Positions 4,908 to 59,266 of a DNA stretch of 64,000 nucleotides are shown here, in pieces. Every line of letters begins with the position of its first letter. Positions within the stretch are counted from its first letter, which is position 1. Both the position numbers and the translations under genes were made by a program. Source of the DNA: Eriocheir sinensis (lineage: Eukaryota > Arthropoda > Malacostraca > Decapoda > Varunidae); assembly GCF_024679095.1 (NCBI RefSeq), contig NW_026111665.1, positions 503,499 through 567,498 of the forward strand. The letters run 5' to 3'. The notes below the pieces were generated by a model. It saw only the letters and a list, made by a program, of their open reading frames with translations, had not been told where the DNA came from and did not search any database.

Positions 4908-4974
4908 ATCGACAGTGAGTGGTGGGGACGTGGACTTGCGCTTCTGCTGTGGGCTCGGAGAGCGAATACCCGCC
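4908..4974 (-). promoter_or_regulatory. H2A 5' UTR and cap site, cut by element B1
   Basis: On the minus strand TGGCGGGTATTCGCTCTCC contains the histone cap-type motif ATTCG (first base 4967), giving a 60-nt leader to the ATG. Only 7 nt of native sequence remain upstream of that base before the B1 tail, so the TATA region is displaced. The same leader occurs at 23836-23901 and 59200-59266. Confidence 0.7.
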
Positions 4975-4999
4975 ACTTCTTCTTCTGCTGCTGGTTTAT

Positions 5000-5044
5000 T
5001 TATCCCTGGGGGAAACGGGCCTTTGTCAGGTTTGACGGCCCGTG
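5000..5044 (-). other. 3' terminal hairpin of element B1
   Basis: Minus-strand ACGGGCC pairs with GGCCCGT, with an inner GTCA/TGAC stem and AACC loop. CCCCCAGGG and ATAAATAA follow. The same outer arms with different inner loops occur in A1, A2, B2 and the short elements. It probably serves as the RT recognition structure for target-primed reverse transcription, by analogy with other non-LTR 3' UTRs. Confidence 0.65.
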
Positions 5045-5074
5045 AGCTGATTTGGCGAAGTCTTATCGGGGGGT

Positions 5075-8000
5075 TCACCTCGGGGGCTCACATGTTGTGA
5101 CGAGACGCACCAGAGCCTCGTCACTGAGGGCAACAATCAGCTTTGGTAAAGGCAGCCCTTCCGGGTTGCGGATGAGATGGCGTGTGCCCTCACATTCGAG
5201 GAGGTAGTGGAGGAGTGGCTGGGCGAACTCCTCCTCGCAGTAAGGGCACTCAACCGGGACCGGGTCGTCGATGTCCAGGAGCGAGGCACACCGGTACCCG
5301 AAGCGCAGGCGGTGGAGGTTGGAGGCCACTCGCCTGGGGGCCTAATGGAAGCCGACGGCTGCCGGAGCCCGTCGCCGAGGCATACCAGTATGTAGACGGT
5401 GAGCCGGCCGCCAAGGCCTCTGCAAGAGCCCTGACCACACCCGCCGAGGTATGGGCCGCCATGTCACGCTTGATCAGTGACACGCTCGGGGAAACGGCTC
5501 ATGTTATGCTGGGGAGCAGGGTGGCCTCGCCGGCAGCGCGGTCAGCAGTGTCGTTACCCACCACGCCTGCATGGCTGGGCAACCAGTTTAGGTGGACCTG
5601 ACGGCCAGCTCTCCCCAGTTCCTGCAACCGGGCGTGGATGCCCGTGAGGAGGGATACGTTGCCATCCATCGGGTCCTGGCACAGCGATCGTATGGCCGGC
5701 ACCGAGTCACAGTGTACCAGGACCGGGCCCATGCCCCACTCCAGCACATGCCCCAGCGCCATGCTGATCGCCACTAGCTCCGCCTGGGTCGAGGAGGAGC
5801 CGTCAGGCAGCCGGAAGATGTCAGCATGGCCCGCCGTGACGAATGCCGCCCCGACAGCCCCAGTGAGGTGGTTGACGGAGCCGTCTGTGTAGTATGTGGC
5901 TGCGAGGGGCCTGGCCGCCTCCTAGTCTCTGGTCATGGCCTCCCGCGCTAGGCTTTGCGGTGTCAGGAGGTCCTTCCTCGCAGGCAATGGCTTGATTGTG
6001 GCCGTGAAGGTGGCTGGTGCCCACGGGGGAGGTAAGGTGTAGCCAGGGTGGGGCAGGTCTGTGTTCATCAGGAAACACCGGGAGAGGCGGGTGGACCTGA
6101 GTTTGGCCGCTGCCACCGCCGCCCACGTTTTCTTGCGAAAAAGCAGAGGGGCCTGATTGAGGGCCTGTTCCACCGAGGCTCTCAGTGGTTCTGACCCCCT
6201 GCGGCGCAGCAGCGTTGCCAGGTGGCCGACGGCGAGCTGGGTGATCCTCGCGGCAACAGTGCTAAGCCGGACCTTCGCCCTCATGGATAGGCATTTCGTC
6301 CACCGGGGGGCCCCTACGATGGTACGGATCGCCGCATTCTGGGCCGTCTCCAGAGGCCGGAGTGCAGCAGGGTCCACCGTCATGAGGCACGGCGTCCCGT
6401 AATATACACAAGCCCTCACTGCCTGGAGATAAAATAGCCGTAGAACCCTGTCGCTGGCTCGTCCGGCAGTCCTCGCCAGGGCCCGCATGATGTTGGTGCA
6501 TGTCGCTACGGTTTGACGAAGGTGGTTGACATAGGGGGCGAAGGAGAGCAGTGAATCCAGGGTGACGCCCAGATATTTATAGACGTGCACCCAGGGGACA
6601 GGGGTGCCGTCAAGCTCGAAGGCCTCGGGGAGGAGACGGTGGTGGATGGCCATGGCCCTCGTATTTCCCCTGTTCATCACGAGCCAGAGGGACGCACAGG
6701 TCTGTGAGAGGCAGCGGTGGAGGAGACGAGCGCTGGCCACGTGGTTCGGGCCGGAAACCACCATGGCCACGTCGTCCGCGTATGAGAAGACCCGTGCATA
6801 GCGGCTTTATGGCAGAGTTGTCAATTTCTCTACAAGCAAGTTGAAGAGAACGGGGCACAGGACACCACCCTGAGGCGTGCCGTTTTCGAAGGCCCGAGTT
6901 GTGGACCTGCAGCCCTGTAATTGTACTGCCGCCCAGCGATTCTGGAGGCACTGGCCGATCCAAGCCAGCAGGCCTGCCCCGAACGCCCTTCTCGGCAAGG
7001 ATAGTCAGCACAGCAGGCGCCGAGGCCAGCTCGAACGCCTTCTCCAGATCCAGGAATACCACCACAGCCTGCCGACCCAAGACATCAGAGAGGAGAGTGG
7101 ACACGCAACCTCTGGTGTCCATGCCTCGGCGAAAGGCAAACAGGTGGTGGTGAAGGGGCCCCATCGCCCACCGAAGGCGAGAGAGGAGGAATCTCTCCAG
7201 AGTCTTTCCCAAGCAGCTCAGGAGTGATATGGGGCGGAACTCGCCTCCGTCACCGCTCTTGGGGATGGGCACGATGGTGGCAGTTTTCCAGGCTGCAGGA
7301 ACAGTTCCGCGTGAGTAGGATGCATTGTACAGGGCGCCAATCTCGCCAAGCATGTCAGGCCCAGCGTGGCGAAGGAAGGCGTACGGGATTTTATCTTCGC
7401 CTGGGGCAGTGTCGGTGACAGGGATTGCCTTCTCCAGCTCCTGGAGGTGTATGGGGGCGTCGGTGGCATGCCCTTCAAGACAAGCCTCCCTGAAGGCCCC
7501 CATCCTCGCCGGGTACGCCGCCCTCTGCAGTTCCCTGGTGGTAGGGGGAAGTCTCTCAGAGGCAGCACGGAACACAAAGGTATTTATGGGGAGGCGGTGG
7601 CTGAGTCGACAGAGTAACATCACCGCGTTCAGTACGACGCGAGTTCAATCCCCGCTCGGTGCCACCAAGCTGGGATTTTTCAGCCTCCGCCGAGTGGCTT
7701 AAAACTACCCACATGCTGTCCAGAAGACCACATATCAACCCGGACTCTAGATTCTAGGATTCTAGGATTCGGGAGGGAAGCATGAGTCAATGCAAGATGG
7801 CGCCACTATAAACACTCGCCTGCGCCAGAACGGGCTGGGCCGACCATCAGGACCCACCGGGAAGAAGCCTTGGGCCGACCATCAGGCCCCACCTGGAAGA
7901 AGCCTACCGGCGCTATTAAGGAGCCTTTCTGCCTCCTCTTGTGGCTGCGGGTGCAGCGCCGGCCGGGCGACCGCCCCCTGGGCCACGGCTCTGAGCTTGC

Positions 8001-9030
8001 GCCAGAGTACAGCAGTGGATACACTGGCGTCAAAGGAGCCGCACCACTTTAGCCAGTGTTCCTCCTGCATCCTGGCCGCAGTCTATCTAGCAAGACGGAT
8101 CGCAGCCCTGAGGAGGCCCCTCGTCGCCTCCGTGTTTACACGGCGGTTGAGCTTCTGGGCCTGATTATCACTGTGATTGGCCTCCCGAACCTCTCGGCAG
8201 TAATACCAGCGGTCTCGGCGGTTGGGCGCTGCAGGCTGAGAGCGGGGGATCGCCACATCCGCTGCCCGCCGGAATGCGTCAACCAGGCGCGTCTCTGCCA
8301 CCTCCAAGTCGTCAGGCCGGATGGTGTCGGCGAGGTGGCGGGTAACGGCTCTGCTAAAGCTTGCCCAATCCCGGGCAAGGTTCCAGCGCACTGGTCTTGG
8401 AGGTGGCAGTGGCGCCGTGAGCGGAAGGGTGACAACTGTTGCAAGATGGTTGCTGGCAAGGCTGCGGTGGAGGGCCCACGTCGCACCGACGTCAAGTGGC
8501 CGCGTGACCAGGGAGAGGTCCAGCACCCCTCCCCTGACATGAGTAGGCTCCCCCGTGTTCAGGAGGGCGACCCGAGGCACGTCCTCCAGAGCAGAAGCGA
8601 GGTGACGCCTAGCGCGGTTTCTCCGCCCGCTTCACCACCTCTCATGGTGGGCGTTGAAGTCCCCCCCCGATGAAGGTGGGCTCATCATTGGCGAGGGAGA
8701 GGAGCGGTAGGGTTGCTGTACACGCAGCAGAACGTGACAGTTATGCTCGGCAAGGCCACCTTAACCGCCAGTACCTCCACGCCGTCACCGCATAGCGCAG
8801 GGTGAAGCACTCGGGAGTAGGGAAGTGCATCCCTGACCAAGATGCCACACCCACGCGCTGCACCGGCAACGGTAGGGAGGTAGAAGGCACTGAAGCCATT
8901 GAAGGACACCGACTGGCCTTCCTGAAGGAGTGTCTCCTGCAGGAGGATGACATCGAGGTCGTCGGTGCCGATCGCTGCTCGCAGGAGGTTGACCTTGCCT
9001 CGCACGCCACACACGTTCCATTGCAGGACT
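5075..9030 (-). pseudogene. B1 ORF2: endonuclease / reverse transcriptase / RNase H
   Basis: In minus-strand order: APE-type endonuclease (LQWNVCGVRGK, LLQETLLQ), where the frame breaks near 8670-8700 in the GGDFNAHH region; a linker with RRDRWYYC; RT from about 7560 (VPIPKSGDGGEFRPISLLS, VVVFLDLEKAFELA, GTPQGGVL); a lesion near 6807; thumb to about 5990; nonsense TAG at 5922; RNase H (VHCDSVPAI, WLPSHAGVVGND); and a C-terminal CPYCEEE...HYLLEC zinc motif ending at the stop at 5075-5077. At least five frame breaks plus the SINE interrupt it. ORF2 proteins of this type nick the target and prime reverse transcription from it. B2 at 59369-62970 is a far better preserved copy. Confidence 0.88.
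7584..7916 (+). mobile_element. tRNA-derived SINE inserted in B1 ORF2
   Basis: Plus strand: A-box-like TGGCTGAGTCG (7598-7608), B-box GAGTTCAATCC (7641-7651), and a tRNA-related head ending GGTGCCACC. The GAGTGGCTTAAAACTACCC body follows, then an ATTCTAGG repeat (7748-7771), the GATGGCGCCACTATAAACAC segment and two direct copies of GGGCCGACCATCAGG. It interrupts the B1 coding sequence that is continuous in B2 at 61825-61850. Flanking TATTTA and TATTAA may be a decayed target-site duplication. Confidence 0.8.
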
Positions 9031-9031
9031 C

Positions 9032-11024
9032 TTAGCGGCTGGACCCCAGCGATGTCCCGGGGCTGGACACGGGGGCCGTCGTCTGCATGGGGGTCAGGCC
9101 TCGCCGCTTCGGCAGCACCTTGCGCTCGGGCAGCGGGAGGCGGGACCGTGTCGGCACCGTGCGCACCGGGATGTGGGAGCGGGTCGTGTTGCGTCCCATT
9201 GTCCAGTGCACCGCCCTCAACGTTGCCTTGGCTGGGGGTACGCCTAGCTGGGGAGGCTGGTGGCATTCGTCGGCCTCCATCTACGTCACCTCTACGGAAG
9301 GAGGAAGGGGCTCGGGTGCTCGGGTCTCGGCAGGTGGGGAAGCGGGGCTTTGAGGCTCTGGAGGTGGTGGGGCGGGTGTGGCGGAGGGGCCTGCTATGGC
9401 GGGAAAGTGCTCCTCCACTGTCGCCATCGCAATTACTCGCAGGTCCGCCTCGTCGGGCGAGAGCTGGAGGAGGTCCGTCACGGCAAGGGTAAAGCTTGCC
9501 AGCATCCCATCGAACGCGGCCTTCGTCACAAGGACGTAGCCGGGTGGTGTGGACAGTGGTGCAGTCTGTGCGCTCGGGGGGGGCCGCGGCCTGCGGTTCC
9601 TCTGCCGACGCCCGCGCTGAGGCAGAGGAGGTGGAGGCAGTGTGGGAGCTAGTTGCTCCTGTCGCGGGAGGAGCCCGAGGTGGAGGTTGGGCGGGGAGGC
9701 GGGCCAGGTGTCGAGGTGGAGGTTGTGGATGGAGGCGGGGCGGGCGTTAAGGCAGGGCCAGCGGCCGCAGCTGGGAGACGTGACAGAGCGGGTGTTGGGT
9801 TGGAGGCAGTAGAGGCGGCCCGAGAGGCGCTTGGTGGCGGGAGGCTGGGGAAGTGAGCGGGAGAGGTTAGTGTTGCCTGTGCAGGGGGCGTGGGCTGCTG
9901 AGCGACCTTGATCGGGACCGTCTGGTCCTTGCCGGGCGGGAGGGTTTGTGAGCAGCACGCCATTCCTCCTGCCGCTTGACGCCCTCGTCCACCCGGGTCA
10001 GCCGTGAGGGGCAGCAGCGACTCCATGCATGGTGCTGCTGCTTGCAATTTGGGCACAGAGCTGGTACCGCCTCCCCGGCCTTGCATTTGGCCAGACAGAC
10101 CTCGGTCATGTGCGGCCCGGAGCACATGCCGCACACGGCCGGGCGGTTGCAGCAGGAGCGGTGGTGGCCGTACTGCTTACAACTGAAGCAGCGCAGTGGC
10201 TCCTTGTTGAAGGGGCGTGTGTAAAACACCCCCCAACTCCCCAGGTCGAGACTGTCGGGGAGGGGGCTTTTCATCGTTACGATGACCTGGCGGGTGTCCA
10301 TCCCATCTCGCGTCTGGCACCTGTCCGCTGAGACGACGTCTGGGTGGCGAAGGAGAGCCTTGAGGGACATAGCCGCTAGGTATGACGTCACCACACCCTT
10401 GATGGTGGCGTCTCTCGTCTGCCGCAGCAGGACCGGCTTGCCGTCGACTTCCGTCGTTTCCAGCAGCCGGCGGAGAACTTCTTCGGAGGTCGGCGTGATC
10501 AGCACGCTGCCAGTCTCCAGGAACCGCATCTGCAGGCGAGTTCCTAGTTGCTGTTCCAGGGCGTAGTCGAACCCCGGTGTCGGGGACACGATAACCTTGG
10601 GGCTGGCTGGGGTGGAAGCAGCGAGGCGTAAAGCAGGTGCATCGGGGTGCGAGGCGACACGGAGCGGGGCGGTATGGGCAGCAGTGGTAGTCGAGGGAGT
10701 AGCAGTGGTGAGTGTGGACAGCGGTGCGCGCGGGGTGCTGGGAGGAGCGGTCAAGGCAGGTGAGGAAGCAGCGATGGTGAGAGCGGAGGGCGGAGGGCGA
10801 GAGCCGTGATTGGCCGAGGGCGGAGGCACGCGGCGTGAGTGGCGGCGCCTGCGCCTGTCACCAACTACCTCCCACTCGTCGTCAGACGACAGCGGGAGCG
10901 GGTCGCGGAAAGCCTCATCCTCACTCTCCGACTCAAGGCGGAGCTTCTTGTCGGCGGGGGACTCCGACGCTGAGTCATCAGACTCAGGAGCTGGACGCTC
11001 ACGCTTATCAGTAGCGGTGGACAT
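9032..11024 (-). pseudogene. B1 ORF1: gag-like nucleic-acid-binding protein
   Basis: The likely start is the ATG at 11024 (MSTATDKRERP). An acidic/basic N-terminus is followed by a Ser/Pro/Ala-rich region and a conserved core (VLITPTSEEVLRRLLETTE, SWGVFYTRPF). Three zinc knuckles follow: CFSCKQYGHHRSCC, CGMCSGPHMTEVC and CPNCKQQHHAWSRCC, all upstream of 10000. The C-terminal part is Pro-rich with a conserved helix (GMLASFTLAVTDLLQL) and ends TSLGSSR at 9032. Frame breaks fall near 9870-9950 and 9281. ORF1 proteins bind element RNA; this one is broken. Confidence 0.85.
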
Positions 11025-11262
11025 CCTAGCAACAAGACAGCCAGAAGGATGAACCACAGCTACACATTTAAAAAAAAAGGAAAAAAAAAGTGAAAAACAA
11101 ACTAACCTATGTAGAGCCGGGCTAAGCCTACAACAGCGGGAGGGCTAAACTCCCCCACCCTCTAGAGGGCTCGGTAGAGCCCCGCTGTTGCCCCTTGCGG
11201 GTCTTGGGGGGACCTTACTATCTCTGCTGCCTCCTATAACCACCCCTTTAATGACTTCTGAT
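11025..11262 (-). other. B1 5' UTR with conserved structured block
   Basis: Minus strand 11250-11110 contains AAAGGGGTGGTTA, CCCCCAAGACCCGCAAGGGG, then AACAGCGGG pairing with CCCGCTGTT around small hairpins (GCTCTACCGAGC, CCCTCTAGAGGG). The same blocks occur in A1 at 12856-12985 although the ORF1 N-termini differ. A structured leader (ribozyme- or IRES-like) is possible. An A/T-rich stretch (11066-11100) separates it from ORF1. Confidence 0.6.
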
Positions 11263-12111: not shown

Positions 12112-12177
<66 letters not shown>

Positions 12178-12420: not shown

Positions 12421-12837
12421 CACCCCTACCCGGCATTGGCTTCCCGGACCTGGCAGCGTGCACACCTCTCCCCCACCTTCTAGCAACAGCTCTCGCGGGC
12501 GAGCGATTGAGCTGCTCTGCTACTGCCAGGCTGTGAGTCACCGTTTCAGTGCTCCCTGATTACGTGTCACTCACTCCCCGGAGTTGCCAGCCGTTACCAC
12601 GCGCCTTCCACCTTGCGCACGCCGACTCCCTGCCCCGCGCTGCACACTTCACCCTGCTCCTCGCTCTGCCGTGCCAGTCTACACTGTCTGCGTGTCACTG
12701 GTCACGCGTCGCTAGTTACACGCGACTGCAGCCTTCCTGCTGCTCTGTGTTTGTGCATTTTTTTTGTCTTTTGTTTGTGTGTTTGAGCCTTTAGACCCTG
12801 GTTTAGTACGACGCCGAACCCCGAGGGCAGTGCCACG

Positions 12838-12985
12838 AGGGGGCCCCTTAGGATAAAGGGGTGGTTAAAGGAAAAACCAGGGTTATCGTTAGGTCCCCCA
12901 AGACCCGCAAGGGGCGACAGCGGCGCCTGCCGAGCCCTTTAGAGGGTGGGCGGGCTTTAGCCCTCCGCTGCCGTAGGTAAGCCGG
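12838..12985 (+). other. A1 5' UTR conserved structured block
   Basis: Contains AAAGGGGTGGTTA, GTCCCCCAAGACCCGCAAGG, then CAGCGG pairing with CCGCTG around CCCTTTAGAGGG. This matches the B1 leader at 11110-11250. The preservation of helices rather than exact sequence between the families suggests an RNA structure. Confidence 0.6.
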
Positions 12986-12989
12986 CTCT

Positions 12990-14691
12990 CTGTACGCTCC
13001 CCGACTCTTCTGATGAGGATTGGGTGGTAGTAGGAAAGGTGCGTGACCGTAACCACCGCTCCCACCCACCTCCGCCACCATCGCCTCCCCGCTTCCGCTC
13101 GCCACTTGGCACCTCTGCTACCCCCACCATGCCCAGCTGCTCACGCTCGACGCCGTTCCTCCGTACTACTGCTGCTGCCCCCACTGCTGCCACCTCACCT
13201 GCCTCCACCGCTGCTCCTTCACCTGCCTCCGCCGCTGCCCATGCCACCCCGCTCGGTGCCGTCTCGCACCCCGAGCAGGCTGCTGCCCGCCAAGCTGCTA
13301 CGGCCCCTGTCAGACCCAAGGCTATCGTCCCTCCTACACCGAGCTTCGAGACTGCCCTCGATTTGGCGGAGGCCCTGGAGGAGGAACTCGGGCAGCGTGC
13401 TGGTCACCCCGCCTTCCGAGGAAGCCCTCCGCGCCCTCATGGACATCACGTCGGTGCATGGGAAGGCGGTGCAACTGCGGCTGATGGGCGACGCAACCAC
13501 CAAGGGTGTGGTGACCACTTATCCGGTTGCCATGCATCTCAAGGCTCTCCTCCGACACCCGAGCGTCGTCACGGCGGAGCGGTGTCTGACGCGCGGCAAC
13601 CTTACCACGAGGCAGGTCCTCATCTCGGTGAGGGGCCCCCTGCCGGGCATGCTCGACCTAGGGAGTTGGGGCGTGTTCTACACGCGCCCCTTCAACGCCG
13701 AGCCCCTCCGTTGCTATCGCTGCCAGCAGTACGGCCACCATCGCTCCCACTGCAATCGCCAGGCAGTGTGCGGCATGTGCTCGGGGCCGCACATGACGGA
13801 GGCCTGCCTTGCGAAATACAAGGCCGGCGAGAACGTGACCGCCCTCTGCCCCAACTGCCGCCAGCATCACCACGCGTGGAGCCGGCGCTGCCCCTCCCGG
13901 TTGAACATAGTGGACCGGGGAATCCAGCGGCAGGAGGAGTGGCGTGCGGCGCACAACCCCTCTCGGCCGGCGTGGACCGGGCGGTCCCGCTCGAGGTCCT
14001 AGCGTCGGCCCGCCCCACCCGGTCAGACAACGCTCGCCTCCCATGAGCACTTCCCGGCCCTCCCACCACCGGGCACATCTAGCGGAAACGCTGCTCCGGC
14101 TGTGCCGCCGCCAGCCACGCCTCCTCCACCGCCCGCCACGCAATCCTACCCGGCCTCCACCTAAACACCTGCCCCGCCCCCACGCCCGGCATCCGCCTCG
14201 GTCCCCTCCACGCAGCTCACTCCCGCACTGCCTCCATCGGCCCTCCCCCAGCGCGTGAGGCGTTGCAGGAACCGCGGGCCGCGCCCCCCCTTGAGCGCGC
14301 CTGCTGCACCCCTGGTTCCTTCTCCCGGCCACGTCTTGATCACCAGGGCTGCACTGGAGTGGATGCTGGCGAGCTTCGCTCTGGCGTTAACCAACCTCCT
14401 ACAGCACACACCGCCACACCGCTGCAAACTCCAGTTGCTGCGCCTCCAACTCGGGCCCGCGAGGACGCTCCACCTCCCGCGGGGGAGGCCCGCATGGAGG
14501 TCGACGCACCCTTCCAGGCAGCGGTTGCACCCGCCGTCTCGGTGGCCCAGCCAGCGCCGGCAACCCAGACCGCCAAGCCCCGCTCACACATCCCAGTGCG
14601 GGCGGCTCCAACCTGCTCCTGCATCCCGCAGCCCAAGAGCATTGTGACCCCGAAGCGCCGGCGGCCCCCTCGCGTGCGGCGGCCCCTTTGA
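12990..14691 (+). pseudogene. A1 ORF1: gag-like protein, truncated N-terminus
   Basis: The first readable codons are DSSDEDWVVVGKVRDR near 13005, which correspond to about residue 55 of B1 ORF1, so the start region is deleted. A frameshift near 13385 moves translation to the frame with VLVTPPSEEALRALMD and SWGVFYTRPFNAEPL. Three zinc knuckles follow: CYRCQQYGHHRSHC, CGMCSGPHMTEAC and CPNCRQHHHAWSRRC. A stop at 14000 and further shifts precede the Pro-rich C-terminus that ends at 14691. Confidence 0.82.
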
Positions 14692-14719
14692 TCACCCCGG
14701 GGGCCTCCTCGGCGACCGG

Positions 14720-18104: not shown

Positions 18105-18428
18105 GCTCTCTGTTCTGTATACGTGGGCGTGTTAGAGTGTGTGTTTGCATGTGTGTGTGTTTGTGTGTGAGTATGTGCGTGATTGTTTTTTTTTTTTTAA
18201 GTCAGCTACAGGACGCCTGTTGCGCCTGTGCCCCAACCAACTTAGTGGGAAGGAGTGTTTATTATATATATGTGTGCGTACATCGGCGTGTGCGTGCGCG
18301 TGTGTATGTATATATGTACATGCACACGTGCGCGCGGCGTGCCGTGTATGCACATATATAGCCCCAGACATAACTGCGACGGGCCGTCGTACTAGACAAG
18401 GGCCCGTTCACCTTCTTAGGGGTTAATC
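18105..18428 (+). other. A1 3' UTR and terminal hairpin
   Basis: TG/CA-rich, with the CAGCTACAGGACGCCTG block shared by all family A copies. It ends with the hairpin at 18374-18427: ACGGGCC and GGCCCGT arms, inner GTC/GAC, loop GTACTA, then the TTCTTAGGGGTTAATC end. Loop changes relative to family B leave the arms intact. Confidence 0.75.
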
Positions 18429-18453
18429 TTAGAAGAAGAAGAACAAGAAGAAG

Positions 18454-18918: not shown

Positions 18919-19637
<719 letters not shown>

Positions 19638-48243: not shown

Positions 48244-48244
48244 A

Positions 48245-49276
48245 GTGGTGTAGGGCCCCAACCACGTGGCCTGCGCCCGCCAGGTCCTCCGCCGGCTGAC
48301 CCAGACGTGCGCCGCCCTAGGGCTGGTCGTCAACAGGACTAAGACAAGGGCTATGGCCCTCCGCCACGGCCACCTTCCTGAGCCCTTCGACCTCGAGGGT
48401 ACGCCCGTGCCGTGGGTGCACACGTGCAAGTACCTCGGGGTCACTGTTGACTCTAGTCTGTCCTTTGGCCCGCACATTGCCCGCGTGCGGGACGAGGTAC
48501 GGCGGCGCACTAATGTGATGAGGGCCCTTGCCAGAACAGCGGGTGGGACTGGGAACAGGGTCCTGCGGACTTTTTACGTCCAGGGCGTGCGGTCCTGTAT
48601 TGACTACGGGACGCCGTGCCTGCTGACGGTGAGTCCGGCGGCGCTTCGGCCGATGGAGACAGCTCAGAACGCCGCCCTCTACGTCATCATTGGCGCCCCC
48701 ATGTGGACGAAATGCGTGTGCCTCCAGGCGGAGGCAGGCGTGTGCAGCGTCGCCGCGAGAGTCACCCAACTCTCAGTGGGGCATCTGGCGGCGCTGCTGA
48801 GACGCATGTGGGCGGAGTATCTCCGCGCCTCCGTCGGGCAGGCCCTCCTGCAGGTCCCCCTCCTGTTCCGCAAGAGAACGTGGGCGACTGTGGCGGCGGC
48901 CACGATTCGCAGTAGCGGACTCCCCCACGCCCTTGTGACGGGCTGTGGACGCCACCCACCCCACCTACGTTGCCCGCCCCCCGTGGGAGCCGCCTGCCTT
49001 AACAGCCACCATACGGCCGCTCGCCACAAGGAAGGCCCTCCTCACCCCTCAGGAGTTGGCCAGGGATGCAGCCAGCAGAGAGCGGGAAGCAGCGTACCCT
49101 GGAGCCTCCGTGTACTACACGGACGGCTCCGTCAACCACCAGACGGGGGCTGTCGGCATAGCTTTTGTGTGCGATGGGGTCACCGCGATATTTCGTCTGC
49201 CAGACGGATGTTCATCCACTCAGGCTGAGCTGGCAGCCATTGGCGGGGCTCTGGATGGAGGGGGGTCAAGGGCTCC
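48245..49276 (+). pseudogene. Family A ORF2 fragment (RT thumb to RNase H), 5' half of an interrupted copy
   Basis: Begins GPNHVACARQVLRRLTQ and runs through KYLGVTVDSSLSFGPH, VGHLAALLRRMW and a frameshift near 48940, then into RNase H: YYTDGSVNHQTGAVG (first Asp) and STQAELAAIGGALD (Glu). Coding stops at about 49276, where Harbinger DNA begins, and resumes at 58034. Confidence 0.87.
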
Positions 49277-49510
49277 GGGCCGGATTGTCAAAACTTACCT
49301 TCGGACGACGGGACCCTACGCGCCGAAATCCCTACCGTCAAACTGTTTTGGGTCGCGACGGGACCCGTTGCGGCGCGGGGGAAGAGGCGATACGAAGGGA
49401 CAGCACAGGGCACCTCTTGCCCCGCGCCACACGTTGCCTCTGATGTCCCCTCCGTTCTTTTCATCCATTTGTCTGACCAGGTAAGCATATTTCCTTTACG
49501 CAGTGTTACT

Positions 49511-49930
49511 TTTTAGGTGTTTTATGATTACGTTGATCTGTATGAGCAAGTAGAAAACCATGAGTAGCCTGCAATGGTTAATACTGGCTATGCCAATATG
49601 TGCTCCTTCGGCCCATGCCTCCCGTCACCAAACTAACCAAATATTAGACAACACAAGGGCATGTTCCAAACTTAGTGATAGGTTTTAGGTGTTTTATGGT
49701 TGCATTGACCTATAAGAGCAAGTAGAAAACCATGAGTAGCCTGTAATGGTTAATACTGGCTATGCCAATATGTGCTCAGTCGGCCCAGCCTCCCGTCACC
49801 ATACTAACCAAATATTAGACCACACAAGGGTATTTTCCAAACTTAGTGATAGGTTTTAGGTGTTTTATGGTTGCAATGACCAATAAGAGGAAGTAGAAAA
49901 CCATGAGTAGTCTGCAATGGTGTGGGGTGT
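49511..49930. repeat. 172-bp tandem repeat near the Harbinger left end
   Basis: Two full units and one partial unit start TTTTAGGTGTTTTATG at 49511, 49683 and 49855. They include AACCATGAGTAG and GGCTATGCCAATATGTGCTC. Confidence 0.88.
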
Positions 49931-50299
49931 CCAGGGGGGCAGCCCCCATGGTCAGCTATGTAGACCAGTTTATTTCTTTAATATACTTATAATAAAAATT
50001 TATGAACATTAAGAGAAAGGGGGACAGAAACCTATCTCACTTGGTCAGAAGCCAGGAACTGTTGGTGGTCATCCAGAATCGGTAATTGTGTCGATTAGTT
50101 ATTTGTTTATTTCTTTTTATCACTTGTAAACGCAGTATATGATTGATTCACAGGTAAAACTAGAGTAACACAACAGTGTGTGATAGGTTGGAATGGCTAA
50201 TTATGCAGTGGTAAGTGACAGAGCTGTGGAGTTAATCGACACAATTACCCCTGAATTTACTTTAATTGTCTGAGTGTAGCCAACCTGGTGTTGACTTTT

Positions 50300-50450
50300 T
50301 CTAACCTATCACAGCATGGAGCAGTATTCCAGCGTTGGTCTCACAAGTGTATCATAAGCTAAGTGTACTAAGTCAGGGGTGCAGTTGTATACATTCCTCC
50401 TGAGGAACCCCAGTGTTTGGTTTGCTGTGGCACTGATGTGGTTAGCTATA
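50300..50450 (-). pseudogene. LINE RT scrap
   Basis: The minus frame contains ISATANQTLGFLRRNVYNC, then LVRPTLEYCSMLW, the thumb motif of CR1/Jockey-like RTs. It lies 5' of the HARBI1 start and is related to 31380-32060. Confidence 0.65.
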
Positions 50451-50556
50451 TATACCTGTTTATTTATTTCATGTTGGTGGTAATCCAGAATCTACTATAA
50501 GAACATGGTGACAGATGTTATAATTTATATGTTTGCTTTTACAGGTTTGTGTGATC

Positions 50557-53555
50557 ATGGCTGCTTACGATGATGTTTGGGATGAATTCGACCTCTGGGA
50601 TCAATGGGAGGAGCTGGAGGAGATGGATGCCCCAAGAGTTGTCGTCCGTAGACCTCGAAGGATTGTCACAGGTATAAGTGAGGGGTGAAGGTATCTATTT
50701 TACTGGTTCCTCAATCCAGTTATTGAAAAATATACGAAAATTGGTTGAGTGTATATAATATTACGTATGTAGCGTCCCTACAAATTATTACTGAATTTGC
50801 AAGGCACTCGAGCCTTGTGCATGCCTTCTTGATTGGTTCCATGGTCGCTAACCTATACTGGAGTCCCGAGTTCGAGGCTTGGCGAGTACACTTACTGAGA
50901 ATATATTTTTTTACCAAATCAATTTCCATGTTTGTACAAGGTGCCAAAAAAGCATTGTGACATATTATGTACAAGTAAGAAATCAGGGGAAGTATTATGC
51001 TGGTATCAATTACGTACCAGTCCTTACATTACATACCTACACTATTACACCTGTGAATGTGACAGTGTTATATCCCTGGTCAGCTACCAAACTCATTCAC
51101 ACCCTTCTATCCCAAAGCCTTAAAAACCGACTTTCGCAGCAACAGTGACATAGAAATGAGTATATCATATCCAATGCAAACTCACTGTGTTTATTCCACT
51201 TACAGATCGGATGAATCCCTTCACGGCAATGAGCGACAACGAGTTTGTTGATCGTTTCAGATTAAGAAAAAATTCAATGTATGATCTCATTGAAGAAATA
51301 CGAGAACATCTTCCTGCCCCAACTGACTCCAGAGGTAATTTCTTATCATTATATAAGTAAAGTGGGGTAAGAAAAAATATAGGGGTGTATGGGGTAAGAA
51401 CGAATCATCTCGTATCTATTAATGCCATTAATCTAAAGATGTCTTTTTATCATCGAAAAATAGGTCATTTTTTTGCAATCAATACTTTGCCTGTTTGAGG
51501 AAATACCAGTTACTTGTATGCGCTTAAGATCGTTTTTTCCGTGATCAGGCGAAAAAAGTTTGTCAAAACTTTGAAGTATCTTTCATGAACTTAGATTTTC
51601 TCTTTCCCTGTTAATTGTGACAAGACTCTTTTGTTGTAGCTTTTCCAGAAGTCGAGCATAGTAACCGTTGTAGATGAGTCGATGGCTTTGATGGCGCGGT
51701 CATACGCAATATGGGTATATGAGCGAGGAATGTCACATGCGCAGTTAATGGAAAAATACCAAATAAAGAAAACATCCTTGCACGATCTCCTGAAGGCGAA
51801 GGACAAGACCAAGGACATCAATTACGTGAATGATTATGCCTTACTCGTCATCATCATAGTAAGAGGAAGGAGGGGGCACCGGAGAATGGTGATCAGCTGA
51901 TTCGGGAGACGAACCTCATGGCCCCATGCATTCATTTGTGTTAAACTTGAGAAATATTAAAATAATGGTACTTACAAAATTTTTGGAGGGAAACTAAGGT
52001 ATTTCCTTAACAGATTGATATTTTTTCAAGATAAAATGCATATATTTAAATTTAAAGGATACATTTTTTCTCCAAAATATACTATATTTTTTCTTACCCG
52101 AACATGATATTTTTTCACCCCTTTTTGGGTTAAGAAAAAATCAGAGGAAAATATTCATATTAAATACTGTTACGTATGCTAGGCTCAATTTGACCTTATA
52201 TTATTATACGGAAAGAAGTTTCAATGTATCATAGAAGTCATGATTTATATACAGGAAAACTTCTCCTGTGAAAAAAAGTTTCAGGTTTTGCACTTTTCTT
52301 ACCCATTTTACTATAATCATGAAATGGTGACCCTAGCAGTGGTGGCTCAAAGCATAAATTGGTGGGGTGCTGCTCCAAAAAATGTTTAGGCCAGTGGTTC
52401 TCAAAGTGGGGCCATGGCGGTTGTTGCAAAGAGTACATTTCTACATAGTTTCAGGATTATGAATGTTATTTCATTACTTACCTTTGATTGGCGGGATGAG
52501 ATTATGCAGAAAAATAAAGGGGGGGCGCAGGAATGTTGAAAATTCATGAAGGGAAGAATGGAGAGGAAAAGTATGAGAACCACTGGTTTAGCCCTTGCTG
52601 TAATCCACATTACAGTGCAACCAACTCAGGTGTTCATCCTTCCCTTTTTGGGGATTGATTACTTAAAAATAAACTATAACTTTAATTTTCTTTTTTCTCA
52701 CAGGATGTCCTGTCCCAGCACATTTACAGACACTGATAGCACTACGCTGCATGATGTCTGGGGATCACCAGATGACATTAGGTGACTGCCATGATGTCTC
52801 CCAGACAACAGTTAGCCAGTGCTTGAAGGTGGTGTCACGAGCAGTGGCTAGTTTGAGCAGGCATCACATAATGGCGCCTTCTGGGAATGATCGGCAGAGG
52901 ACTGTTCAAGAGTTCTATGCTATCCATGGCATGCCTGGGGTTATTGGTGCAATAGACTGTACACACATAGCTATAGTGAGACCGTCTGTTGCAAATCCTG
53001 AAGTGTTCCGATGCAGGAAGGTTACTTTTCAATGAATGTGCAAGCTGTGTGTGGTCCCGATCTGCTTTTTCACAACGTTGTTGCTCGTTGGCCTGGGAGT
53101 GTACATGACAGTAGAATTCTGGACAACAGCAGACTTTGTGCACAGTTAGAAGAAACTTTGGAACCACAATACCACCTGCTTGGAGATGCTGGTTATGCCC
53201 TAAAGAGGTATCTCCTAACACCGGTAGCCGTTCCACCAACGATCATGAGCGAGCCTACAACAGCAGTCACACCCATACCAGGAATACAGTGGAACGTGCA
53301 TTTGGTGTCTTAAAAAAAAGATTTGCATATTTAGGAAAGAAAATGAGGACTAGTTTAGATACAACTAAAGCAATCATTGTTGCAGCAGTAGTCTTACATA
53401 ATATAGCTGTGAAAACTAGACTGGTCATGCCACAAGATGGAGCGGAACATGCAATAATCAATGTCAATGCCCTTCATAATGGAGTTCCAGTAGACAGGCA
53501 GGGAAATGCACAAGGCAGATTGAAGCGTCAACAAATCATCAGGGATTTTTTCTGA
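50557..53555 (+). pseudogene. HARBI1-type Harbinger transposase gene (3 coding exons)
   Basis: Exons 50557-50671, 51206-51334 and 52704-53555, all with GT/AG borders, and possibly a 5' non-coding exon upstream (acceptor before 50544). The N-terminus is acidic (WDEFDLWDQWEELEEMD), followed by FRLRKNSMYDLIEEIREHLP and an HTH-like stretch (VSQTTVSQCLKVVSRAV). The DDE core has GVIGAIDCTHI (Asp), PGSVHDSRIL (Asp) and NTVERAFGVLKKRF (Glu). A one-base loss after EVFRCRK (about 53018) and another near 53225 break the frame, so no full transposase can be made. Such nucleases cut DNA together with a Myb-like partner, here encoded at 54277-56204. Confidence 0.87.
52392..52585. mobile_element. hAT-type MITE in HARBI1 intron 2
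   Basis: Ends CAGTGGTTCTCA and TGAGAACCACTG are perfect 12-bp inverted repeats. They are flanked by an 8-bp duplication GTTTAGGC / GTTTAGCC (52384-52391 and 52586-52593, one mismatch). TIR and TSD length fit hAT elements. It is 194 bp and non-coding. Confidence 0.85.
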
Positions 53556-54276
53556 ACATCATCCTCATCATTGACGACTACTCCCATCTCTTTCACAGCT
53601 TCCCCCCTCTTTCAATATCTTTCCTTTCTCATTCATTATCTCATTTATTTTACTTGGGGAGATGTGTTCTAAATTTATTCATATATTACTACTTTCCAAT
53701 ATGATTTTTTATCCCCTTTATAGTTTTCAGTTAGTCTTTCACCAAACTCTTTATCAAATCGCTTTTTCCTTTCTTTTAATGTTATGGTTACTTCCATTGC
53801 ATTCTCTTTATTTTTTTGTTCTTTCCCTTTTTACTTGCGCCTCCATATTATTTTCTTGAGATTTCTAATAAAGTTCCCTTTCCTCTTTTTCTATCACCTT
53901 TATCTCCTCTGTCCACTATGAATTTCCTATTCTTTTTTTATCTCGCACCAGTTTCAGCCCTGAAACCTTTCTTGATATAATAATACTCTTCAATATTAAG
54001 TTGATTATGCTTCCGTTCTGTGCACTGTATTTTTTGCATGTATGAAAATGCTTTATTTATATTGTTTATTATAAAATAAAATTCTTGTTACCCTGAAGTT
54101 GTAACCTTTCATTTCTAAGAACTTACCAAAGTGACCTATTATTATGTATTCTTTGCACACACTAGGACAGCAGATAATTACAGAAAAGTGAGATGTTTTA
54201 GGAACAAAAAGTTACTAAAACAATGGTTACTAGTTCATCCATTTTTATATATATTATATATGCTCTTACATATATC
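53556..54276. other. Spacer between the convergent Harbinger genes
   Basis: T-rich and low complexity, with AATAAA-like signals near 53868 and 54075 that could serve the plus-strand gene. No further gene. Confidence 0.5.
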
Positions 54277-56204
54277 TCATGTGCAGTTTGCGTGCTCTTT
54301 TTCTGCAATGAGTCGATACATTTTTGCTTCTAAAGCTTTTTCTTTTGCCTCCTCTTTTCTGGCTTCAGCCTCCTCAAGCTTCAACTCCATGTATCGTAAT
54401 TGCATGTCCATCAATTTTGCCCTCTTGTTCTGAAACTCGTCGTCCCTGCTTGTGCTGGCCTTCACTATCTCCCGGACTTCTACGTCTTCGCCCGCTTTCC
54501 ACCTCCCGGCTCGACGTTGCCTGCTCGTCATCCTTACGGGGCTGGCAGGCACAATTGTTTCCCCAACTTTGTTGCCGCCCTGTTCTTCATCTGGTGTTGG
54601 TGCCAGTGGTTCGGAACTCACCAACTCACACCAGATGTCGGAGCGTGCTGGCAGTAGAGTAAAAGAAATTATTAGTTGATGAAAACATCTGTTAATGAAA
54701 TGCAGTGGTGTACGTGTCATCTGGCATATTTGTCTGAAAACAGATGCGTTATCAATCAATTAAAATTTTTAATTTTCTAGAACTGCCCCCATGATTGCTG
54801 ACTCAGCACCACAAATTGGCATATTAAATAATATGCTTGCTATACAGATGCTATGTTCATCAAACAAAGATTGGATCGGATTATGATTATTGGAAATGTA
54901 CACCACTGTACTTGTTCAATAACCTCCATTTACGCTTACATATTTAAGTGGCAATGTTCTCAAACGATTATGGTTCTCGCCAACAGTTTTAGGAAGAAGA
55001 AATTCACCACAGACAGAGGCAGCACCTCAGACCCATTACTGCCACGTTCAATGGCACTGTTATTATGTTCATTTATAATAAAAACTTGTGATGCATTTAA
55101 GTGTGTGTTGAGCTTCGCGGGATATATAAACAGGCAGAACACCTGCTTACGAGGTATTTACTTATAAGCTATTCTCCTTATGAGTGTAACATCTTACCTC
55201 ACAAGAGACCTTGAAAATCGGATGAGTCGACCATGGTGGTTCGACTTTGCTGGGAATAAATACATCTGAGTAAACACAAGTATAGTACAGCATTATTTAA
55301 CTTAATTTACTCAAAACCTGTATAATCGGTCGAAGACTCATTGGAACACAGAGTTTTGATGAGATGTCAGAGGACACAGCTTAGGCTGAGTGGAAATGAG
55401 TAATGAAACAAGTGTAACAACGGCAGCATCAAATAATGTGGATTCAGGATGATACCCATGTGATGAAGTTCCATTATTTCATGACAAAATAATTGTAATG
55501 TCAAGATATCCATATCTACTATTCATACGTATTTAACATTCATATTTCCTATGTATACATCATTTACCTGTTATAATGCAAATTGATTATATTGTATACT
55601 TACGCTGAGATGGCAAGGCATCATCATCATAGGGGTTGCCGATGTCATTAATGTCATCCCCGAGGAGTGTGAGCACTTGCTCACAATCTGAGGTCATGTC
55701 TGGTGGAGGCGCGCCACCACCAGTTTTGAACACCTCCCGTTTCAAGTCAGCCTTGCTTTTCTTCGCCCTAAAATAAAATAAATAGATATAGATAGATAGA
55801 TAGATATAGATAGATAGATATAGATAGATATTTGTTGTACTGGTGGTGCAGTTCTTGAATAAATGATGAATATATTAAATTTAATTAAATTTTAGAACTT
55901 GGGGCCATTAATGAAAGTGTTGTTCAGAAGGGCATTGTTCACAGTGTACAGAGATATTTTTCTTCACTTACTTGACTTTCAGTCGCTCCCAAACTTTCTT
56001 GAGCTGCACCTCTGACCGTTGGGGCCCCATGTTGTGGGCATTGAATGTTTCGGTAATTTTCCAGGCCTCCCTCTTCTGTAGGAGTATCCTCCCGTCAGTC
56101 TTTAGGCTGAGTAGGATTGGTTCCTCAGCTATTAGGCCCAATAGCAACTCTCTTGCCGGGGGCGAAATGGGACCTGTCCTCAGGCACTGCTCCAGGGATG
56201 CCAT
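54277..56204 (-). CDS. Myb/SANT-like Harbinger partner protein (3 exons, 255 aa, intact)
   Basis: Exons 55972-56204, 55604-55767 and 54277-54647 join in phase (233+164+371 nt) into a 255-residue frame without stops. It starts MASLEQCLRTGP. The N-terminal ~80 residues form a trihelical Myb/SANT-like domain with the pattern KREAWKITETFNA...EVQLKKVWERLK. A Lys-rich link and an acidic middle (LLGDDINDIGNPYDDD) follow. The C-terminus is a long charged coiled coil (MQLRYMELKLEEAEARKEEA onward). In PIF/Harbinger elements the Myb-like protein helps import the transposase and bind transposon ends. A leader-intron acceptor lies just upstream of the ATG. It appears intact although the transposase is broken. 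Confidence 0.8.
55785..55832. repeat. ATAG microsatellite
   Basis: ATAGATAG-type repeats in the first intron of the Myb/SANT-like gene. Confidence 0.9.
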
Positions 56205-56399
56205 CGTCACTAGTTAGTGCTGTAAGGAAAGCCAATGTAGAAGGTAATATTATATAAGTGTCGTATTGTCGATGAAACGTATTTGATTTTATGCCATAGC
56301 ATAAATAGGCAGGTGTCCTTACACATTAACCTTATACCAGTTTAAGTATGATTTATGAACCCAGATAATACATGTGTGGTTACATTAGTTTACATTACA

Positions 56400-56790
56400 T
56401 TATCGTGCACAGAGGTTATATAGCTCACTACACCGCTTGAAAACTATAACAGATTCAAGTTGTGTTTGCACCTGGTCAGTAACTTAGGTAGGCCAGGGGA
56501 GTTATGGGGTTGACCATGTGCACACTGCTGGTAGCTCTTGGGAACGTATTTACCCTGCACAGAGGTTATATAGCTCACTACACCGCTTGAAAACTAAAAC
56601 AGATTCATGTATGTGTTTGCACCTGGTCAGTAAATAAGGTGGTAAGGGAAGTTATGGGGTAGACCCTGTGCACACTGCTGGTAGCCAATGGTAGCTCTTG
56701 GGAACGTATTTATCCTGCACAGAGGTTATATAGCTCACCACACAGCTAAAAATCATAATTAGCTTATGCATCTGTTTGTACCTGGTCAGT
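56400..56790. repeat. ~150-160-bp tandem repeat, three units
   Basis: Units begin TGCACAGAGGTTATATAGCTC at about 56406, 56556 and 56716, and share GCACCTGGTCAGTAA and GGGAACGTATTTA. The units contain TATATAG, which might act as promoter modules for the minus-strand Myb/SANT-like gene; that is speculation. Confidence 0.88.
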
Positions 56791-57089
56791 AAATGATTAT
56801 GTTATTGCTGAGGTGGTGTTGTGGAGACTGCCTGCTGTTGACGTCAGCTCAAAACAAATGGAATGAAGGTGCTTTAATCCTTCCCTGCAAGCCACATAAG
56901 CTACTTAAGTATCCACACAGGCTAGCTACGTCAATAAACAAACAAAAATACCCTAAAAACTGGCACATGCCCATAAAGTGGCCAGTCAAGGCAGTGATAA
57001 TTATAATTGGTCATGGCCAGGGCAACGTGGTCTCGTCAGTGCTCCCTCCCTACGGCTAGCCAGACTCAAAGAAATATATTTGGCTACCC

Positions 57090-57780
57090 ACAAGGGGTAA
57101 CCCTGTCAGGAAATGCACAAAAACATCATACAATGGGTCATATGATGAGTAAATCCAGTCATACGGGTGGGGCTGACGAGAGCCCAACAGGCTGTAGTCA
57201 GCTCGCCCTCAATTAGGCTAACTAGACCCAAAGCAAGCTGTTTGCCTTCCCACAAAGGTTAACCCCATCAATAAACACACAAAACATCATACAATGGGTC
57301 ATATGATGAGTAAATCCAGTCATACGGGTGGGGCTGACGAGAGCCCAACAGGCTGTAGTCAGCTCGCCCTCAATTAGGCTAACTAGACCCAAAGCAAGCT
57401 GTTTGCCTTCCCACAAAGGTTAACCCCATCAATAAACACACAAAACATCATACAATGGGTCATATGATGAGTAAATCCAGTCATACGGGTGGGGCTGACG
57501 AGAGCCCAACAGGCTGTAGTCAGCTCGCCCTCAATTAGGCTAACTAGACCCAAAGCAAGCTGTTTGCCTTCCACAAAGGTTAACCCCATCAATAAACACA
57601 CAAAACATCATACAATGGGTCATATGATGAGTAAATCCAGTCATACGGGTGGGGCTGACGAGAGCCCAACAGGCTGTAGTCAGCTCGCCCTCAATTAGGC
57701 TAACTAGACCCAAAGCAAGCTGTTTGCCTTCCCACAAAGGTTAACCCCATCAATAAACACACAAAAAACATCATACAATG
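57090..57780. repeat. ~161-bp tandem repeat near the Harbinger right end
   Basis: Four nearly identical units, with AACATCATACAATGGG at 57122, 57283, 57444, 57604 and 57767. Unit homogeneity is high, suggesting recent amplification. The flanking 56791-57089 and 57781-58033 hold no gene. Confidence 0.92.
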
Positions 57781-58033
57781 GGCGAAAATGTCCTACCTTG
57801 TAAGTAAATGCAGGGAAACTTGGAGAGGTGGTGATGACTCCTTCCCGCCAGCAGACGAAAAACAGAATGAAGATAGCGATGCGCATGTAAACAAACCTAC
57901 CGACGTACCAACCCCTCCGTGATCCAGGTACTCGAAGGGGGAAGAGGCGGGAGGATTTGACGGTTCCGATCGCCATTACAGTGCTGAGTTCTCCCGTCGT
58001 GTGGAGCCGTCGGTGAAGGGGGAAGGGAGGTTT

Positions 58034-58700
58034 TGACAATCTAAGGCTCTGTCTTGATCCACTGCGATTCAGTCCCTGCCATCCGCTCTCTGCTACAAGA
58101 CCTCCCGCGCGACAACGTGTCCCTCCTCACCTCCATCCTTGCGAGGCTGGCAGATTTGAGGGGAGCGGGGCGCCCAGTACACGTTAACTGGTTGCCCAGC
58201 CACTCGGCGTGGCGGGCAACGAGTCGGCGGATGGCGCTGCTGCTGAGGCAACGTTCCTGCCTGTTGTCACGCGGCCTGTTGTTGTGAGCCTGTCACAATT
58301 GAAGAGGGGCATGGCCGCACGGTTTGCTGCTGGGGTTGTCAGGGAGCTGGAGGAGGCCCTGGCTGCGGGCTCGCCGTCCGCGTATTGGTACTCGCCGGCC
58401 ACTAACACCGGCGCCCGCCAGCCCCCGCCAAAAATGCCGAGACGGGAGGCATCTAACATCCGCCGCCTCCGTCTCGGTTACAAATGTGCGTCAGTCCTTC
58501 ACCCTGATGACCCTGCCCCTGTCGTGTGCCCTTACTGCGAGGAGGAGGTCCTCCAGCCGCTCCTCCACTACCTCCTCGAGTGCTGTGCGACGCGCAACCT
58601 GCTTCCGAACCGGGAGGGACTATCGGCGCCAGCCTTGGTGGGGGCCCTGGACGACAGGGCGCTTACTGCCTTAGTGCGGGCATATGAGCCGCCCAGGTAG
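58034..58700 (+). pseudogene. Family A RNase H C-terminal part, 3' half of the interrupted copy
   Basis: Resumes with IHCDSVPAIRSLLQDLPRDN in frame. A one-base loss near 58206 shifts to GNESADGAAAEATFLP, and it continues to the CPYCEEEVLQPLLHYLLEC zinc motif and the terminal YEPPR, with the stop at 58698-58700. It joins 48245-49276 as one copy split by Harbinger. Confidence 0.87.
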
Positions 58701-59018
58701 GCTCTCTGTTCTGTATATGTGGGCGTGTTAGAGTGCGTGTATGTATGTGTGGGTGTTTGTGTGTGAGTATGTGCGTGATTGTATTTTTTAAGTCAGCTAC
58801 AGGACGCCTGGTGCGCCTATGCCCCAACCCACTTAGTGGGAAGGGGTGTTTACTATCTATAGTGCGTACATCGGCGTGTGCGTGCGCGTGTGTATGTATA
58901 TATGTACATGCACACGTGCGTGCGGCGTACCGTGTATGCACATATATAGCCCCAGCCATAACTGCGACGGGCCGTCGTAGTAGACAAAGGCTTGTTCCCC
59001 TTCTTAGGGGTTAATCTT
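58701..59018 (+). other. Family A 3' UTR with terminal hairpin
   Basis: Same TG-rich UTR as A1. The hairpin at 58972-59018 has one arm changed (GGCTTGT instead of GGCCCGT), weakening the pairing. A short AAAAGGAAGG tail follows. Confidence 0.78.
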
Positions 59019-59037
59019 AAAAGGAAGGCGGCCCGGC

Positions 59038-59100
59038 CTCGGGCGAGCAGCCGGGTGGCCCTTCTACGGAGGCGAGGTGGACCCGTGGGGTCATCCTCGC
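59038..59100 (+). repeat. 5' piece of the short GC-rich element
   Basis: GAGCAGCCGGGTGGCCCTTC and GGTCATCCTCGCTT match 2560-2600 and 2985-3045. It is cut by the H2A fragment at 59103. Confidence 0.65.
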
Positions 59101-59102
59101 TT

Positions 59103-59199
59103 GACGGTGGATCCTGCCCACGGGGAACTGCAGGCCGGCACGGCTGGAGCAGGACTTTGACTTCCCCTTCACCTTTCCTCCCTTGCCGCGTTCAGATAT
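59103..59199 (-). pseudogene. H2A: Histone H2A 5' fragment with lost start codon
   Basis: Minus-strand H2A N-terminus ([20 protein letters not shown]) through [10 protein letters not shown], then an abrupt break at 59103. The start codon is ATA instead of ATG (59197-59199). The rest of the gene is absent, so it is non-functional. Confidence 0.9.
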
Positions 59200-59266
59200 G
59201 TCGACAGTGAGTGGTGGGGGCGTGGACTTGCGCTCCTGCTGTGAGCTCGGAGAGCGAATACCCGCC
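59200..59266 (-). promoter_or_regulatory. H2A 5' UTR and cap site, cut by element B2
   Basis: Same leader as at 4908-4974 and 23836-23901, with the ATTCG cap motif at 59259. The element tail begins 7 nt upstream, the same distance as in the other two H2A copies. Confidence 0.7.

Follow-up and report, generated by a model that had tools for sequence, protein, structure and literature searches.

Results

Histone genes and retroelements at the locus

The 64-kb window analysed here (C1439:503499-567498 of the 1.77-Gb, 2158-contig assembly of Eriocheir sinensis) carries histone genes whose promoters are interrupted, a few bases upstream of the cap motif, by the 3′ ends of retrotransposons without long terminal repeats (non-LTR elements). 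Families A, B, C, F and unnamed ones are long interspersed nuclear elements (LINEs), while E and X are short partners without reverse transcriptase (RT). The features are as follows (positions in the window; ORF, open reading frame; aa, amino acids):

2091..2358, minus strand: X-type short element, 5′ end CAGTGGAACGCC 29 nt past the H2B TATA box
2359..2513, no strand: core of a divergent H2A/H2B promoter with both TATA boxes, isolated by two head-to-head X elements
2514..2985, plus strand: X-type short element(s), 5′ end CAGTGGACCGCCAGC 28 nt past the H2A TATA; an element 3′ end with poly(A) lies near 2940-2983
4566..4974, minus strand: H2A gene 1, degenerate, ORF of 113 aa, with its leader, whose end at 4974 is TGGCGGGTATTCG
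4975..11250, minus strand: family B element, 3′ end at 4975, tail (CAG)(GAA)n
12435..18452, plus strand: family A element, base 1 at 12435 (ATTGGCTTCCCGG) following CCCGGC, 3′ end at 18452, tail (GAA)n
18453..18868, plus strand: H2B leader and intact 123-aa ORF, without a TATA box of its own
23464..23901, minus strand: H2A gene 2, intact 123-aa ORF, leader end at 23901
23902..28420, minus strand: family C element (3′ end, RT and gag ORFs), tail (GAATTT)3
48245..59033, plus strand: 3′ part of a second family A element in two pieces (48245-49256 and 58045-59033, 8.8 kb between them), then GCGGCCCGGC and a truncated X element
59095..59266, minus strand: H2A gene 3, of which the 5′ end alone remains, leader end at 59266
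59267..64000, minus strand: second family B element, poly(A) tail, RT ORF 59962-62457, continuing past the window edge

Read on the gene strand, the three H2A leaders start with (T)GGCGGGTATTCG at 4974, 23901 and 59266, with GGCGGGT 7 nt ahead of ATTCG, and the H2B leader starts with GGCCCGGCAACATTCG at 18453, 10 nt ahead of CATTCG; the gene-side bases kept at the junctions are TGGCGGGTATTCG (H2A) and GGCCCGGCAACATTCG (H2B). Each leader adjoins the 3′ end of an element in sense orientation (B at 4975 and 59267, C at 23902, A at 18452), and the four tails are (CAG)(GAA)n, poly(A), (GAATTT)3 and (GAA)n. The first-pass annotation had located these four junctions correctly to a base or two, and what it reported of them agrees with the sequence: the H2A cut 7 nt before ATTCG, the H2B cut 10 nt before CATTCG, the non-LTR neighbours in sense orientation (B twice, C and A once each) and their unlike tails. 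The two B copies have leaders that differ at 5 of 70 positions, elements that differ by about 9-16% per 250 bp, and unlike tails. By comparison with A, the B element at 4975..11250 is probably 5′-truncated; it holds another repeat of about 300 bp at 7584-7913. Further junctions in the window are the A 3′ end at 59033 and several element 3′ ends at 1.6-3 kb. A 70-bp repeat at 59033 was considered as a new gene and rejected, as it is the truncated X element. Rfam gave no match within the 64-kb window at gathering scores.

Empty sites and split promoters

Intact divergent H2A/H2B promoters in other clusters (H2A CTATATAGGGCGAAAAAGCCGCGAGCGGCAGGTATTCG; H2B CATAAAGGGGGAATCCGGGGGCGGCCCGGCAACATTCG) show both the TATA box and the cap, and by this comparison the elements lie between the two. 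Chance is excluded, because the junctions fall within the same few bases when set against intact promoters elsewhere in the genome. The sequence examined amounts to 283,362 bases of the E. sinensis genome, window included, together with 180 flanks (L029-L208; 29,074 bases). Promoters were counted in the 283,362 bases, in regions selected for holding histone genes, and the cap census was made without the best-match mode of the pattern search. Four of 13 H2A caps are split by an element and nine have a TATA box, one of them missed by the TATA pattern and reading CACTATAGGG. The 14 H2B caps comprise six element-split promoters, one deletion fused to H2A and seven intact promoters, and the 19 H3 caps two split and 17 intact ones. 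For H4, 11 of 15 are split (eight by E, three by F), three are intact and one, the window H4, has an unexplained upstream sequence.

Twenty further H2A leaders, drawn from the best 40 by similarity to those of the window, include 13 split ones and seven intact on the H2A side; in three of the latter (L033, L044 and L048) the H2B target bases bear different sequence, which in L048 is X. Wherever an H2A, H2B, H3 or H4 leader is split by a recognised element, that element is in sense orientation. The element-split genes mostly retain whole ORFs: nine of the 11 H4 genes encode 103 aa, one reads through the expected stop and one ends after 52 aa, and five of the six H2B genes encode 123 aa (the sixth, 61 aa).

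3′ ends across the genome

In each DNA search the best 40 candidates were scored (69-262 at first look). Because each search lists the sequences most similar to its query, the shares below are biased towards close relatives and should not be read as genome-wide rates. For family A, all flanks of the 41 listed rows were examined, the window copy among them: 20 3′ ends lie at the H2B leader, or at H2B target bases or the cap followed by another element, and four at the U2 small nuclear RNA (snRNA) start (two joined to U2 RNA, as confirmed by Rfam, and two with the octamer TGGGCGGC and then another A in the same array). For family E, among 26 of its best 40 rows, 19 end at H4 or H2B sites (H4 leader, 13; H2B leader, one; H4 target bases and then another element, five) and the others at other elements (six) or elsewhere (one).

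For family C, 19 of the 24 full-length rows with at least 87% identity were examined, and 15 end at H2A or H2B sites: three at the H2A leader, three at the H2B leader and nine at H2A target bases followed by an A/B-type start. These nine share their junction and are counted as one event. The remaining four comprise three unexplained ends and one X start. Contigs with a histone match hold 23 of the 24 rows at 87% or more over full length versus two of the 16 other rows, which are at most 85% identical or partial (one is 88% over 120 bases); 14 of these 16 more distant copies lie on contigs without a histone match, and none of the three examined adjoins a histone gene. As for B (23 of the best 40 rows), four 3′ ends lie at the H2A leader and eight at H2A-like target bases (GTGGCGGGT, GTGGCTGGT, GTGGTGGT) followed by another element or a truncated B.

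Several flanks deserve separate mention. In L157, L158, L150 and L152, B is joined to unrecognised CATTCG or TATTCG leaders, perhaps other histone-like or element promoters. In L079 and L093, A and E respectively adjoin a different repeat (CACTGAAGAAGGGT..ACCCGAAATCGCGATCTGG), which may be an additional target that has a start site of its own. Copies of a family H at H2A (L034, L038) have an apparently inverted 5′ segment, as in twin priming, and sequence matching this segment also follows H4 target bases in L104.

U2 and U1 snRNA genes

On contig C1655, a U2 promoter ending in TGGGCGGC is followed by an A start at 111951; next come an A tail with TGGGCGGC and, at 118522, the start of another A, and finally an A tail with TGAGCGGC and the U2 +1 at 125106; the spacing between these pieces suggests two whole tandem A copies. 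Among 20 of 46 rows of U2 starts, 18 are empty, while A is present in L127 and another kind of poly(A) element in L128, each joined at about -9. None of the 20 U1 starts examined (of 42 rows) in the same arrays carries these elements, a weak control since U2 itself gives just 2/20; L188 has an odd upstream sequence without a tail. The first-pass proposal of site-specific non-LTR elements at histone promoters holds for H2A, H2B, H3 and H4; a restriction to histone genes would be too narrow, U2 starts being used as well.

5′ ends and duplicated target bases

The target duplications are 8-13 bp long and cover roughly -13 to -1; the pattern scans behind them, behind the 5′ junctions in clusters and behind part of the E rows may be incomplete, as best-match regular expressions skip hits. 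The duplicated bases are GCGGCCCGGC for A at H2B, GAGCGGCAGGT for a B-like element at H2A, GCGGCGGGT for X in L046 and GGGCAGCCCA(ACA) for E at H4; in the clusters, E is preceded by TATATAGAGCGAACGCTGGGGCAGCCCA(ACA) and A by CATAAA...GCGGCCCGGC. Successive insertions are stacked at one site, every element having a separate copy of the target bases, and a truncated copy at C1533:303031 has the same junction.

Where a host promoter adjoins a complete element, base 1 of the element falls at the presumed histone +1, and family A is placed likewise at U2 genes, for which +1 is known. In ten hand-picked junctions base 1 lies 28-32 nt past the histone TATA, measured from its first base. E, F and X begin with CAGT, which we take to be an arthropod initiator, and A with ATTGG. 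Among 20 of the best 40 flanks from the search for A 5′ ends, four starts have the H2B promoter directly upstream (L202, L203, L204, L208; 30 nt each), one the H3 promoter (L205; 32 nt) and one the U2 promoter (L199), base 1 being U2 +1; four others follow another element and then H2B, U2 or H2A target bases (L189, L200, L206, L207).

Element domains and lineages

The reverse transcriptase domain (PF00078) is present in the ORFs of A, B and C; none was found in E or X. Among named sequences, the RT ORF of the second B element (59962-62457, minus strand) is best matched by ones from E. sinensis. The endonuclease fragment of the window alone gave a weak match in the PDB search (best E 0.14). In P0003, a relative 60% identical to B, Pfam recognises PF03372/PF14529, and the first 233 aa match two ExoIII-type PDB chains; its domain order is an N-terminal ExoIII-like domain, RT (424-748) and RNase H (942-1066). 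Judged through this relative, B appears to be a LINE of the apurinic/apyrimidinic endonuclease (APE) type, with the endonuclease upstream of RT, and the R2/NeSL/Utopia arrangement, a restriction-like endonuclease without APE, was not found in P0003. RNase H (PF00075) in relatives is compatible with the R1/I group, and the PDB search gave no clade placement. RT identity is 46-75% among A, B and F and about 30% between C and B, so that no fewer than two RT lineages use these sites; a C-like element at H3 with a TTAGA tail has an RT 46% identical to that of C.

Other features of the window

A GGTACC-rich palindrome (11773-12067) occupies the expected place of an H2A/H2B promoter and has a direct repeat on either side (11455-11631 and 12158-12327); sequence similar to this region also precedes A at C53:11040349 (L190). 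Positions 1-698 are an exact copy (100%) of 5541-6238, and a second H2A leader with a B element lies just beyond the window at C1439:502698-502928, so that the H2A and B unit looks tandemly duplicated. The 8.8-kb AT-rich stretch (49257-58044) that interrupts the second A copy holds ORFs at 52751-53313 which, from inspection of their translation, resemble a HARBI1-type transposase. Inspected in the same way, ORFs at 32302-33562 resemble a Ulp1-type protease and a PHD finger, perhaps transposon-borne; a Pfam search of ORF 32687-33562 gave no match. The window H4 (19200-19325) is without the usual promoter, and its upstream sequence matches none of the element ends examined.

Discussion

Our results point to a set of retroelements that insert repeatedly at the same nucleotide position of histone and U2 promoters, off-target copies existing as well. 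The junctions, their orientation, the duplicated target bases, the stacked insertions and the position of base 1 at the host start are all visible in the genome, and the insertions carry the marks of target-primed reverse transcription (a 3′ tail, a target duplication and 5′ truncation), which is probably the pathway used. The explanation that we consider highly probable is that site-specific APE-type LINEs (A, B, C, F and the unnamed families) and the RT-less E and X insert by this pathway into the core promoters of H2A, H2B, H3, H4 and U2, and capture them. A bottom-strand nick about 7-13 nt before +1 would prime synthesis of the complementary DNA, and the top strand would be cut near +1. 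Since the duplicated bases extend to about +1, the host promoter faces base 1 of the element after insertion. With base 1 placed at +1, full-length element RNA may be made from its first base by the host TATA box (or the U2 promoter). If transcribed in this way, the element could do without a promoter and every further insertion would rebuild the arrangement. Ahead of the histone cap, insertion restores just the bases from about -13 to -1, the host gene losing its TATA box. Selection of the target would depend mainly on a short GC-rich motif immediately preceding +1, in gene families that are conserved, multicopy and tolerant.

A number of observations weigh against promoter capture by site-specific insertion. 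Capture is what we infer from position, and the histone +1 is itself presumed from TATA spacing and the cap motif. Seven 5′ junctions, truncated or from another kind of element, fall outside the set of ten distances, and of the 20 A starts seven have other or unknown flanks (L191, L194-L198, L201), two follow poly(A) and then CCGGC (L192, L193) and one copies the window locus (L190). In the window, the promoter between the A and B elements is replaced by the palindromic repeat. One off-target A copy (C16:15454140; L201 with L083) sits within the RT frame of another element, with GGGACGCGC on both sides. Of the A 3′ ends, 17 of 41 lie off the H2B and U2 starts (five at a Y start, four at an X start, one at an A start, two elsewhere in U2 arrays, five unexplained), and 11 of 23 B flanks are at neither the H2A leader nor H2A-like bases (four at other leaders with CATTCG or TATTCG, two at an X start, five other). 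Segmental duplication also means that few of the rows count as independent; the 20 A rows at H2B sites represent about eight events. It had been recognised at the outset that the idea would fail if most copies of these families lay outside histone genes; among the rows examined, the shares at these sites are 20/41 (H2B) and 4/41 (U2) for A, 19/26 for E, 15/19 for C and, for B, 4/23 at H2A leaders and 8/23 at H2A-like bases, the A and B copies just listed lying elsewhere.

What is recognised at the target could be the transcription start itself, the insertion machinery reading the pre-initiation complex or melted DNA instead of sequence. Melted DNA at initiation spans about -9 to +2, and duplications of 8-13 bp at about -13 to -1 recur in promoters as unlike as those of H2A, H2B, H4 and U2; A also begins at the presumed H3 +1, and both TATA and U2-type promoters are used. 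Against this stand the GRGCRGC-like bases that recur at the nick (GAGCGGC in H2A, GGGCGGC in H2B and U2, GGGCAGC in H4), the A copy at GGGACGCGC inside a coding frame and, as a weak control, the absence of insertions from the 20 U1 starts as compared with two of 20 for U2. On balance we favour recognition of sequence, and regard start-site recognition as rather unlikely.

That one or a few insertions were spread by segmental duplication or concerted evolution of histone units, the shared site being inherited, is very improbable. Local duplication is real: L049 is a copy of the A/H2B junction of the window, L067, L074, L075 and L076 are identical, L133-L140 and L144 as well as L029 are also duplicates, and the A/X/H2A unit (58-59.9 kb of the window) recurs at seven other places (C1591, two in C1383, C1439:942k, C1803, C1182 and C2037). 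However, unlike families (A, B, C, E, F, H, X) with different tails, truncation points and target duplications are found at the same bases, with equal placement in four unlike histone promoters and U2, and stacked elements are each followed by their own copy of the target bases. Since unrelated families and tails share one site, a single duplicated event is excluded as the sole cause, and duplication remains a multiplier of copies; the doubt expressed in the first-pass annotation about simple copying of one event was well founded.

Even less credible is broad insertion followed by survival solely in damage-tolerant, redundant histone and U2 arrays: these genes are indeed multicopy and off-target copies do exist, two of them elsewhere in U2 arrays, but survival alone would neither fix the junctions within a few bases nor make all recognised elements at split leaders sense-oriented. 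Least plausible of all is an assembly artefact joining repeats to histone genes, for although the assembly has 2158 contigs, dense repeats and the 100% copy of 5541-6238 at 1-698, junctions with target duplications occur on more than 20 contigs, large ones included (C9, 25.7 Mb; C53, 12.6 Mb; C57, 12.0 Mb).

Site-specific insertion is known from other systems. TRAS and SART are LINEs specific for telomeric repeats that use target-primed insertion; their target is a simple repeat, whereas that of the crab elements consists of genes. R1 and R2 use the transcription of the ribosomal RNA (rRNA) gene. As described in PMC3706591, these two are site-specific LINEs in multicopy 28S rRNA genes. They are located inside the rRNA gene, whereas the crab elements lie at a core promoter of RNA polymerase II (Pol II), with base 1 presumably at +1. 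Closer in target are Keno and Utopia, LINEs of different lineages that share one U2 site and are occasionally inserted in tandem, Keno having an APE-like endonuclease; according to PMC4640811, the U2 sequence downstream of both begins at nucleotide 39, within the RNA. By this description family A does not match Keno/Utopia, its junctions in the crab being at -8/-9 (once +2) and +1. Tf1 and TRE5-A insert near Pol II promoters and transfer RNA (tRNA) genes, respectively, not at a fixed position inside their target (PMC3706591). They resemble the crab elements in targeting promoters or gene neighbourhoods, Tf1 being an LTR element unlike the crab LINEs. Dada DNA transposons share with the crab elements a fixed site in multicopy genes (snRNA and tRNA) and differ in using a DDE transposase, without retrotransposition (same source). 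A histone-targeting LINE was not found in a full-text literature search, most subscription papers being outside its reach, in line with the first-pass annotation, whose author knew of no site-specific non-LTR element at histone promoters. Histone genes are absent from the target list in the introduction of PMC5035012, and the word "histone" from the accessible text of PMC3706591.

The target described here is the core promoter of protein-coding histone genes together with the U2 start, hit with near nucleotide precision by at least two lineages, which points to endonucleases with a new natural target. If promoter capture is true, it would provide a concrete route for a promoterless LINE to stay expressed. 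The system also makes target choice driven by the endonuclease or by the transcription machinery testable, and it may allow one to study inside a single family how specificity is gained, since the distant C-like copies are mostly on contigs without a histone match. It bears furthermore on the supply of H4, as 11 of the 15 H4 promoters examined are split. The 3′ end of E carries the box TATTRAA upstream of the H4 start, at a distance of 23-27 nt in 15 of 17 junctions and of 16 nt in two, the native TATA lying at 31 nt. We tentatively raise the possibility, about which we remain rather doubtful, that unrelated LINEs form a guild whose members have converged on the initiation site of multicopy Pol II genes with strong expression, where the element would be fired from base 1 by the TATA or snRNA promoter of the host and the AT-rich box of E-type elements would perhaps keep the displaced histone gene alive. 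If so, insertion would be a promoter swap and not a gene disruption, and element RNA would be made in S phase alongside histone mRNA.

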